Shown here piece after piece: positions 1 through 37,485 of a stretch of DNA of 37,702 nt. Position 1 is the stretch's first letter. Each line of letters opens with the position of its first letter. Below the pieces are notes generated by a model, which was not told the origin of the DNA, ran no database searches, and saw nothing but the letters and a program-made list of their open reading frames with translations. The stretch lies in IMG/VR virus record IMGVR_UViG_3300030382_002965, positions 4,226-41,927 of that record; one strand, written 5' to 3'. The position numbers and the translations under genes are program-made. This DNA is from a virus.

Positions 1-28
1 CCTTACAGAAAGAGCAAAAAACAAAAAA

Positions 29-99
29 CTCTTATAGAGCCCTATGATTATTATCTATATATTAATATATCTATATATACCAATCATACTCTTACAGAG
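29..99. repeat. Nested dyad with paired CTCTTAYAGAG copies
   Basis: Two near-identical 11-mers, CTCTTATAGAG at 29-39 and CTCTTACAGAG at 89-99, lie symmetrically about position 64, and each is itself palindromic. Between them are a perfect 14-base AT palindrome (57-70) and the inverted pair TGATT (45-49) / AATCA (82-86). The whole stretch is therefore a nested dyad directly upstream of the replication genes. An operator, an early promoter region or an origin would each fit; the sequence does not decide between them. Confidence 0.45.
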
Positions 100-105
100 A
101 AACTA

Positions 106-191
106 AATTAGTCTGTTTTTATAGCTAATATATTTACTATCCTCCAAATGTATTAGCTTTATAAACAGATTAATTAATAAAGGAGGATATA
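106..191 (+). promoter_or_regulatory. Leader hairpin with anti-Shine-Dalgarno loop
   Basis: Arms 106-130 and 151-175 form an imperfect inverted repeat of 25 bases around a 20-base loop. The loop holds TATCCTCC (138-145). This is the exact complement of GGAGGATA (182-189), the ribosome-binding site of the first gene, whose ATG is at 192. The loop could pair with that site over 8 bases to give a pseudoknot that hides it. What is seen is the complementarity and the hairpin; translational control of the early unit is inferred. Confidence 0.5.
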
Positions 192-335
192 ATGCGTGAT
201 AATTACCAATGTGAGGAATGCAAGAACACAACTAAAGCAGATGAATTTACTTGTTTGTGTTTGTGTTTAAATTGTGGTCCTTGTGATGAGAATGGATGTA
301 AATATGGCGAAGAAAAAGATGAAGAACTTTGTTGA
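192..335 (+). CDS. Cys-rich mini-protein, probable zinc-binding knuckle
   Basis: A 47-residue protein that starts at an ATG 5 bases after a near-perfect GGAGG site, which makes the start secure. It has eight cysteines: a CxxC pair (C7, C10) near the N-terminus, a run CLCLCLNC (21-28), then C31 and C36, and ends in Cys. The tail is acidic. This layout suggests a small metal-binding knuckle, but I do not recognise the family. It is the first gene of the replication unit, sits under the anti-Shine-Dalgarno hairpin, and overlaps the next gene by 32 bases in another frame. A second Cys-rich mini-protein lies at the far end of the late unit. Confidence 0.6.
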   Translation: MRDNYQCEECKNTTKADEFTCLCLCLNCGPCDENGCKYGEEKDEELC

Positions 336-452: not shown

Positions 453-920
453 ATGTTATTAAATGACGTAGAGTTAAACTGGATAAAGTTGGATCCTAAA
501 AATCCTGATATGGGTTTTGATAAACAAAGTCCACAATATTCAGTTACTGTAAAAACATCAGATAAGAAAAAAGCTGATGAATGGAAAAAAGCTGGTATCA
601 ATGTAAAACCAGTTGAGGAAAATGGTGCTGTTGTGTATAGTGCTGGACTGAAGAAAAAGATTTATTCTGACGCTGAGGGTAAATATAATACTTCACCTCC
701 ACCAGTTGTAGACAAAAGTTTACAACCTATTCTTGATACCACTACTTTAGGTAATGGATCAAAAGGTAATGTTCAGGTTAAATTTAAACCATACACATAT
801 ATGGGTAAATCTGGAATATCTGTACAACTTTTAGCATTACAAATTACTGAAAAAGTTGAGTATACAGGCGGAGACAAACTTGAGTTTGCTGCAATTGATA
901 CTGAAAAAGAAGTAATTTAA
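453..920 (+). CDS. Single-stranded DNA-binding protein (T7 gp2.5-like)
   Basis: A 155-residue OB-fold type protein that coats single-stranded DNA during replication and recombination. The opening pattern (LNWIKLDPKNPD, then VTVKTSDKKKADEWKKAG) and the later VQVKFKPYTYMGKSGISVQLLALQI strand pattern are typical of gp2.5/DUF2815 proteins of T7-like phages. The C-terminus is moderately acidic (about DTEKEVI) but does not end in the aromatic residue that T7 gp2.5 uses to contact its polymerase and helicase. An AAAGGAG site precedes the ATG. A hairpin follows the stop codon, which could favour higher expression of this gene than of those downstream. Confidence 0.8.
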   Translation: MLLNDVELNWIKLDPKNPDMGFDKQSPQYSVTVKTSDKKKADEWKKAGINVKPVEENGAVVYSAGLKKKIYSDAEGKYNTSPPPVVDKSLQPILDTTTLGNGSKGNVQVKFKPYTYMGKSGISVQLLALQITEKVEYTGGDKLEFAAIDTEKEVI

Positions 921-3653: not shown

Positions 3654-4386
3654 TAAAGTAATTGGATTAATTGATGGTGACGTAATAATTTATCGTGCTA
3701 TTAATAAATCAGAAAAAGATAATATAACTCCAAAAAAAGCTTTTGATATGACAATAGAAAATATTAAAGCTGAAACAGCATGTCAAGAATATCAATTGCA
3801 TGTAAGTGGTAAAGGTAATTTTAGAAAAGAATTAAAGCAACCATATACTGTTTATAAAGGTAAGAGAAAAGAGAAACCACCTCAATTTAAACCATTAAAG
3901 GAATATGTAATTAAAAAATATAAACCTATAATGCAAGATGGTTTAGAGGCGGATGATACAATTTCAATTCAAGCCACGAAATATTTAAAAGAAAATCAAT
4001 TATATATGTTAATTACAATTGATAAGGATCTTAAAACTATTGGTGGTCTATTTTATAATTTAATGTATAATAATTTAATTGCTGTGTCTAATATTGGTGC
4101 AGTTGAGTTTTTCCACGAGCAACTATTAACTGGGGATCCTGTAGATAATGTTCCAGGTGTAGAAGGAATTGGTAAAGTTAAAGCAGGTAAAATATTAAAA
4201 GGTAAAAATATAAAAGATCAATTTAAAGCAATTGTCAATACCTATAAAAAACATTATGGTAAAGACCATAGACATAGATTAGAAACTATGGGTAAGATGC
4301 TTTATTTATTAAAGGATATAAAAGATAAATGGACAATTAATTTTTGGAAAGGTTATGTCAATGGCATTCAACCAATCGGAATATAA
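3640..4386 (+). CDS. 5'-3' exonuclease (T7 gp6-like, FEN family)
   Basis: About 248 residues. The N-terminal GLIDGDVIIYRA supplies the first metal-binding Asp pair. LEADDTISIQA and ITIDKDLKTI give the central acidic cluster. GDPVDNVPGVEGIGKVKAGKIL is the helix-hairpin-helix DNA-binding segment with its metal Asp residues. The enzyme removes primers and resects ends during replication and recombination. The start chosen is the ATG at 3640, which has AAGGA ten bases upstream. An ATG eight codons earlier at 3616 has its purine run almost touching it, so it is less likely. The gene overlaps the end of the polymerase by 14 bases. Confidence 0.88.
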   Translation: MQHTNKVIGLIDGDVIIYRAINKSEKDNITPKKAFDMTIENIKAETACQEYQLHVSGKGNFRKELKQPYTVYKGKRKEKPPQFKPLKEYVIKKYKPIMQDGLEADDTISIQATKYLKENQLYMLITIDKDLKTIGGLFYNLMYNNLIAVSNIGAVEFFHEQLLTGDPVDNVPGVEGIGKVKAGKILKGKNIKDQFKAIVNTYKKHYGKDHRHRLETMGKMLYLLKDIKDKWTINFWKGYVNGIQPIGI

Positions 4387-35882: not shown

Positions 35883-37485
35883 CCTCTACCTCTTCTTCTG
35901 AGGACGACTTTTCTAAAGAAGCTAGTTCTTGATTAAATTGTTCTCTTGGTGATATTATTCTATCATCTCTTGTAATTTCATCTTCACCTTTAATATCATC
36001 ATAATCTGTAGGAATTGCATCATTGTTTTTAGCAACTTCTAAGAATGTAGTTCTAGGTATTAAACCATTTTGATACCATTCAGTTATTAATCTCATCCAT
36101 TCAGCACCTCTTGGAGCCGCAGTGAAATCCGCAGATAAGTTAAATCTAATATCATTTTCTTTTATATTTAAATCGTATCTCCAGTTTACTAAATGTTTAA
36201 TTATTTTCTTCATTGCTTCAGAAACTTTAGCATTTAATGTAGAAAGTGCGGCGTTTTGAGCTGCATTTCTTAAACTTAAAGCAACACCAGACGCATCTGA
36301 GTTATTAGGTTCTAAACTTAACATTTTAACACCAATTCTAGTTAATTCATCATAACCACCTTTAATAGCGGCTTCCATATCTTTTAAAGCCTCTGTTGGT
36401 GTTTGTAATGTCTCAACAGTATCATCTTTATTAACAAATAACCAAGTTCCTAAGCCTTGTCTAACTAAATCATTCTTTTCAGTTTCTGTTAATGAATCAG
36501 ACTTAACTACTGGTGTATATGTAGCTGATAAATATAATAAGTGGTTTCTTCTACTTATTTTATTATATAATGATATTTCTCTATTAACAATTGGTGTCAT
36601 CATAGGATCTACTGTACCAACTGAACCATTTAAAGGATAGAAAGGAATAAAATTCATTCTTTCACCATTTTTAAATAAGTTCTCATTAGTACCTTTAGAA
36701 ATCCAGACATCTGTTAATTGATCAAAGTCATAATTAATAGCACCATCAATAAATGAAGGAGTATCTGTTGTGTTTCTAATAAAGTTTTCTATAACATATA
36801 AACCTTGTTCATTTATTTTATGAACTTGAACACTATCAACATATTTTGGGTGATATGGTGAATTTGGATCATAATCTAAGGTAAAATATCTAGTAATTAA
36901 TGTATCTAATTTTACTTGGCCTTTAACATCTGTTCTTGTAGACCAATTAATAATATTTTCAGCAGTATGTAAGACAGGATAAGGTTTAACTTCTCGTCTT
37001 TCTTCTGGTGTTAAATTTTCTAAATCAACAGTTGGATAGTCTATTTGTATCCAGGCTCTTGAAGTTTGTAATTCTTCCCATAAGGCACTGCTTAAAAATG
37101 ATAATAAGTTTGATTTATCACCACCAATATCATCTAATATCCATGATTTAGCTGATTCAGGGGCATTATCAATTTCTAATAGAGGTTGTTTTCTTAATAA
37201 ACCACCAATTATCATTTTTGAGAATTCTGATGTAACGCCTGGCACTTCGGCCTCGGCTTTATAGAAATCGTATTGAGCTTGAGACATTGTAGGGTTAAAA
37301 GGTAATAATAAATTATCACTACTAGGTACTGTATCATAATCTTTTGTGTATGATGGACCTTGTATAATAGCTCTGTTACGTTTCCATTCGTTTACTTGAC
37401 TAAGGTATTCATCATTTGGATACCCTGGTCCTTTTTTAACTTGCGTAGATTTAACTATGCTTGAGTTGATATTTTTGATTGACAT
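35866..37485 (-). CDS. Portal protein (DUF4055 type)
   Basis: A 539-residue protein that would form the dodecameric DNA channel at one capsid vertex. The pattern NEWKRNRAIIQG, then FYKAEAEVPGVTSEFSKMIIGGLLRK, then NREISLYNKISRRNHLLYLSATYTPV and GYDELTRIGVKMLSLEP, is that of the DUF4055 portal family. The C-terminus is acidic (SSSEEEVEDEK). An AGGAAACACAA lead precedes the start. It is the first gene of the late unit seen here. The terminase gene expected near it is not in the window. Confidence 0.88.
   Translation of the reverse strand: MSIKNINSSIVKSTQVKKGPGYPNDEYLSQVNEWKRNRAIIQGPSYTKDYDTVPSSDNLLLPFNPTMSQAQYDFYKAEAEVPGVTSEFSKMIIGGLLRKQPLLEIDNAPESAKSWILDDIGGDKSNLLSFLSSALWEELQTSRAWIQIDYPTVDLENLTPEERREVKPYPVLHTAENIINWSTRTDVKGQVKLDTLITRYFTLDYDPNSPYHPKYVDSVQVHKINEQGLYVIENFIRNTTDTPSFIDGAINYDFDQLTDVWISKGTNENLFKNGERMNFIPFYPLNGSVGTVDPMMTPIVNREISLYNKISRRNHLLYLSATYTPVVKSDSLTETEKNDLVRQGLGTWLFVNKDDTVETLQTPTEALKDMEAAIKGGYDELTRIGVKMLSLEPNNSDASGVALSLRNAAQNAALSTLNAKVSEAMKKIIKHLVNWRYDLNIKENDIRFNLSADFTAAPRGAEWMRLITEWYQNGLIPRTTFLEVAKNNDAIPTDYDDIKGEDEITRDDRIISPREQFNQELASLEKSSSEEEVEDEKIS

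Follow-up and report, generated by a model that had tools for sequence, protein, structure and literature searches.

A conserved leader hairpin with a loop complementary to the first ribosome-binding site of the replication operon in a phage related to Kolga, a siphophage of SAR11

The replication operon and its upstream region

The stretch of viral DNA analysed here (the window; 37,702 nucleotides) extends from base 4226 to base 41927 of a virus record that is 41,927 bases long. Its plus strand carries a set of replication genes that encode an SSB, a dNMP kinase, a DNA polymerase, an exonuclease, an endonuclease and a primase-helicase. Alignment of these genes with those of Pelagibacter phage Kolga EXVC016S, which has been described as the first siphovirus to be isolated on SAR11 (PMC8163748), gave 73% identity. 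Judged by sequence, the window phage is a relative of Kolga, and this relatedness makes SAR11 its probable host.

The operon is preceded by a leader that contains a long hairpin, and the first gene (ORF1) and the SSB gene follow (Table 1). ORF1 had no match among PHROGs. ORF2 overlaps ORF1, to which it is possibly translationally coupled, and the SSB gene carries an SD of its own (AAAAGGAG). Further copies of the promoter-like core CTTACAGA occur at window positions 2-9 and, in divergent orientation, upstream of the window. In relatives, the motif reads AATAAGG-N-CCCTTACAGA and is likewise found both before the leader and in divergent orientation; in Kolga, copies lie at L075:31439+ and 31329-, divergent in the early region, and at 36624+, before the terminase region. 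The motif is probably the promoter for a phage single-subunit RNA polymerase. In the source record, ten N directly precede window base 1 (L003:4216-4225), and an inverted copy of window positions 80-98 is located some 65-80 bases before that base; the assembly of the divergent promoter region may therefore be imperfect.

Table 1 Features of the leader and first genes in the window
Feature	Position	Strand	Remarks
Promoter-like motif, core CTTACAGA	91-98	+	Repeated motif just upstream of the leader
Stem S1, 5' arm	106-135	+	28-bp stem; 6 compensated pairs in 17 window-group leaders
Hairpin loop, 10 nt	136-145	+	L1 = 2 nt, L2 = 0
Proposed S2, 5' strand, TATCCTCC	138-145	+	3' side of the loop, flush against the S1 3' arm
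Stem S1, 3' arm	146-175	+	Stem pairing, covariation
Linker L3, stem to SD region	176-181	+	Must lengthen, through opening of about 5 bp of S1, to span the stem
SD region of ORF1, GGAGGATA; proposed S2, 3' strand	182-189	+	Exact complement of TATCCTCC
ORF1, 47-aa Cys-rich protein, first cistron of the replication operon	192-335	+	Conserved in relatives
SSB (Gp2.5-like), third cistron	453-920	+	phrog_112, E 3e-16

A conserved plus-strand RNA hairpin

The original prediction described a 25-base imperfect inverted repeat at this position; the repeat is present, and its arms proved somewhat longer, forming 28 pairs (two of them G-U) interrupted by two U.U mismatches. The hairpin alone has a folding energy of -26.6 kcal/mol, and the region 90-260 folds with z = -2.97 relative to shuffled sequences.

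We compiled 33 leaders through searches with the SSB, dNMP kinase and polymerase, one pattern scan and the genome of Kolga, and sorted them into 11 groups by our own grouping. In all 33, the same operon opens with a hairpin, which has CCTCC in its loop (CCTCTC in L041) and is followed by a purine-rich SD-like element. The stems differ in sequence between groups (for example, GAGCC...GGGCTC, TTTTGGC...GCCAGAA and ATTTATAGCC...GGCTATAAAT) and in length (about 11 to 28 bp), and across groups the loop is more conserved than the stem. Given that the leader recurs in relatives with different stems, coincidence is excluded for the combination of a hairpin and a pyrimidine loop beside an SD. Stem-pattern scans yielded a single further leader (L277), a scan of genome contigs found two more loci with window-group leaders, and a pattern scan for ACCTCTC/AGAGG leaders matched the L041 contig and further contigs. 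Within the loci inspected, the hairpin is found only in the rightward replication leader. Several relatives have an additional small 5' hairpin.

Across the alignment of 17 window-group leaders, both partners have changed at six stem pairs—a number reached in 0 of 500 shuffles—and 96.8% of the stem cells of the alignment are paired. On the plus strand, G-U pairs outnumber A-C mismatches by 57 to 2, and in 26 of 26 leaders the hairpin is more stable than its own reverse complement. Stem covariation and the bias towards G-U together indicate that the folded molecule is the plus-strand RNA, and we regard the hairpin, from comparative sequence data, as a conserved RNA of that strand.

The genes that follow this RNA are not constant. 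The Cys-rich ORF1 is the first gene in the window and in L071, L125, L203, L207, L209 and L211, a gp38-like gene takes this place in Kolga, L111, L041, L194, L197 and L242, and L136 has a first gene of another family. Because the leader is retained across unrelated first-gene families, it belongs to the operon and not to one gene, which disfavours autogenous control by the first product.

Loop complementarity and proposed capture of the ribosome-binding site

As originally described, the loop is exactly complementary to the ribosome-binding site of the first gene, the start codon of which (ATG) occupies 192-194. The strands TATCCTCC and GGAGGATA form eight Watson-Crick pairs (-13.6 kcal/mol). 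An 8-bp match to the window leader arises in 1.2% of shuffles of the 17-nt loop region (p ~0.012); with a pyrimidine loop facing a purine SD, the match is no more than moderately surprising and would not be persuasive alone. A mechanical search of 939 kb of related loci for hairpins with loops complementary to the bases preceding a start codon gave approximately four matches other than leaders. In the window, the ribosome site of ORF1 is the best partner of the loop, ahead of those of the 39 other listed genes with 60 aa or more (-13.6 versus -11.7 kcal/mol for the next best), and among the listed sites the own one also ranks first of 20 in the L041 contig and first of 55 in Kolga.

Loop and downstream bases share at least six contiguous Watson-Crick pairs in 28 of the 33 leaders, with a maximum of ten. 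The SD-complementary core of the loop, ATCCTCC, is invariant in 17 of 17 aligned window-group leaders. GGAGG follows the hairpin even in L125, L136, L207 and L209, in which the real gene has a second SD in front of it. Pairing is weak in L197 (4 bp) and L242 (5 bp), and in L203 and L211 the partner GGGGGA pairs with UCCUCC through one G-U. In L203 (4180-4210), L211 (4145-4165) and L277, GGGGGA overlaps an in-frame upstream ATG (AATGGGGGAT), and in this subgroup the pairing might cover a start codon instead of an SD.

Inspection by eye identified a four-codon ORF (ATG-x-x-x-TGA) with its own SD downstream of the loop partner and ahead of the real start in L125, L136 and L207 (MEFI at L125:2600-2625, MEEI near 3030 in L206, which is the same contig as L136, and MGEV near 970 in L207). 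The stop of this ORF overlaps the next start (ATGA), and it is possibly a reinitiation minicistron. In L209, the SD is duplicated.

The original prediction proposed a search for compensatory changes between 138-145 and 182-189. Such a change was found in L041 only, in which the loop reads TACCTCT and the SD AGAGGTA, as compared with TATCCTCC and GGAGGATA in the window (by loop shuffling, the loop/SD match in L041 has p = 0.07). The S2 core has no covariation within the window group, as six of its eight pairs are invariant and the other two deviate through unpaired cells only. When loops were combined with the ribosome sites of other groups, pairing was not significantly worse (p 0.1-0.3; 0.19 for 23 leaders and 0.11 for 12), although this test has little power because both sides are near consensus in most groups. 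A cross-group ranking of loops against ribosome sites showed no signal (mean ranks of 5.8 and 6.25 of 12).

The geometry of the leaders fits a classic H-type pseudoknot. In the 14 leaders analysed, the complementary bases occupy the 3' part of the loop, where they abut the stem or nearly do so, and the connecting segments measure 1-5 nt for L1 (9 in L194), 0-2 nt for L2 (4 in L194) and 5-11 nt for L3. Stems of 11-19 bp can be spanned, or almost spanned, by the linker; in the window, however, the 6-nt linker is too short for the 28-bp stem, and the predicted knot could close only if about 5 bp at the stem base opened, which counts against it. In a rough in-house estimate (Dirks-Pierce-like), the window pseudoknot reaches -30.5 kcal/mol compared with -26.6 kcal/mol for the hairpin, as the 8-bp helix repays the opening, and the same crude energy model favours the pseudoknot by 1-9 kcal/mol in 14 of 14 leaders.

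We infer that the leader acts in cis as a 5' RNA element of the replication operon in Kolga-like SAR11 siphophages. The transcript, probably a product of the phage's own polymerase, would start near CTTACAGA, and the long hairpin would fold first, exposing a (U/A)UCCUCC loop. Once transcribed, the SD of the first cistron would be captured by the loop (6-10 bp) to form an H-type pseudoknot that, when closed, would hide the SD from the ribosome and that would be opened by 30S binding or by some factor. We assign a probability of roughly 0.6 to the reading in which SD capture by the loop reduces translation of the first cistron until a 30S subunit or a factor opens the knot. The loop/SD pairing (-13.6 kcal/mol) is closely matched to a typical 16S anti-SD pairing (-12.0 kcal/mol), a balance that would keep translation low in the default state and yet openable. 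Switching of the whole replication unit, as first envisaged, is unsupported because the SSB gene has its own AAAAGGAG; only the SD of the small first cistron would be masked, and the first gene is unrelated in other relatives. We also put forward, tentatively and at odds clearly below even, that these leaders constitute a new phage pseudoknot family, ancestral in Kolga-like SAR11 siphophages, in which an anti-SD-like loop covers the first SD of the replication operon transcribed by the polymerase; release by free 30S subunits or by a phage factor (SSB or S21) would let the operon sense the state of translation or replication.

The principal rival to SD capture is that the conserved RNA presents its pyrimidine loop as a binding site for a protein (for example, phage SSB, phage S21 or another), and the SD match would then be a by-product because such a pyrimidine loop always matches an SD. 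The loop does vary less than the SD, the non-significant swap test is in line with a protein site, the loops of L197, L203 and L211 are merely pyrimidine-rich (CUCUCCUCCUC), and Kolga encodes an S21 (PMC8163748). We nevertheless consider a protein site the unlikelier explanation, at perhaps one chance in five, given the joint loop/SD change in L041, the position of CCTCC at the 3' side of the loop and flush with the stem, as a pseudoknot requires, and the loop U ahead of CCUCC, which lengthens the match to GGAGGA(U). It is improbable that the hairpin merely protects or processes the 5' end, as a 5' stabilizer or RNase III substrate with a loop devoid of function: the long stem is promoter-proximal and the small extra 5' hairpin of several relatives would suit such a role, but the loop is the better conserved part across groups and the stem varies more than twofold in length. 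We give very little weight to the loop acting in trans as an antisense to the SDs of other phage or host messages; many phage SDs have bases in common with GGAGGATA, and 9 of 39 listed ribosome sites of the window match by at least six bases, but in three genomes no listed site pairs better with the loop than its own, and both the placement beside the SD and the linker length are kept. An inverted repeat that works as DNA (a replication origin, primase or cruciform site) would accord with its position between divergent promoter-like motifs and ahead of replication genes, but is most unlikely because of the G-U/A-C asymmetry and the lower stability of the complement in every leader compared.

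Relation to known leader RNAs

A pseudoknot that hides an SD belongs to a mechanism class known from riboswitches; in the class I preQ1 and the SAM-II/SAM-V riboswitches, the SD forms part of the knot or is close to it. The leader proposed here resembles these in placing a simple pseudoknot beside the start codon, but conserves only its pairing elements, has no apparent ligand pocket and possesses a far longer stem. In Rfam 15, no family (including preQ1, SAM-II, SAM-V and the rpsB leader) reached its gathering score in the window or in 16 related loci. A SAM-V-type motif has been described in SAR11, and the rpsB leader motif occurs in SAR11 and other bacteria (PMC2704228); the latter differs from the window leader in its three-stem junction and its association with a ribosomal protein gene. 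Permissive Rfam matches consisted of generic microRNA hairpins and a sub-threshold match to caiA RNA (RF02934; 18.7 bits, E 0.3-0.56, compared with a gathering score of 55.5), which we rejected as its stem does not fit. The caiA RNA is nonetheless the nearest in architecture, with a consensus hairpin that has AUCC in the loop region and GGAGGA downstream. Such a leader is undescribed in the literature that we searched, to which a 2017 collection of candidate structured RNAs did not belong.

The closest phage counterpart is the gene 32 translational operator of T4, RB69 and T2, a 5' pseudoknot in a phage leader (PMC535899, PMC3014915). Both would be leader pseudoknots that control translation with an SSB gene nearby, but the T4 knot lies about 67 nt upstream, nucleates gp32 binding and has no SD inside (PMC535899, PMC3014915), whereas in the window the SD is inside the proposed knot and the SSB gene is the third (in relatives, the third or a later) cistron. 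We therefore did not assign the leader to the T4 gene 32 type, in which a separate, upstream knot directly precedes the SSB gene and is bound by the SSB. Pseudoknots that control translation are rare in DNA phages, and a 2010 review considered the T4-type gene 32 knot as possibly the only viral example in translational autoregulation (PMC3014915). If SD capture is true, the leader would add a second case, different in structure, of a phage leader pseudoknot that controls translation, found in phages of the most abundant marine surface bacteria, SAR11, with Kolga as a cultured representative for testing.
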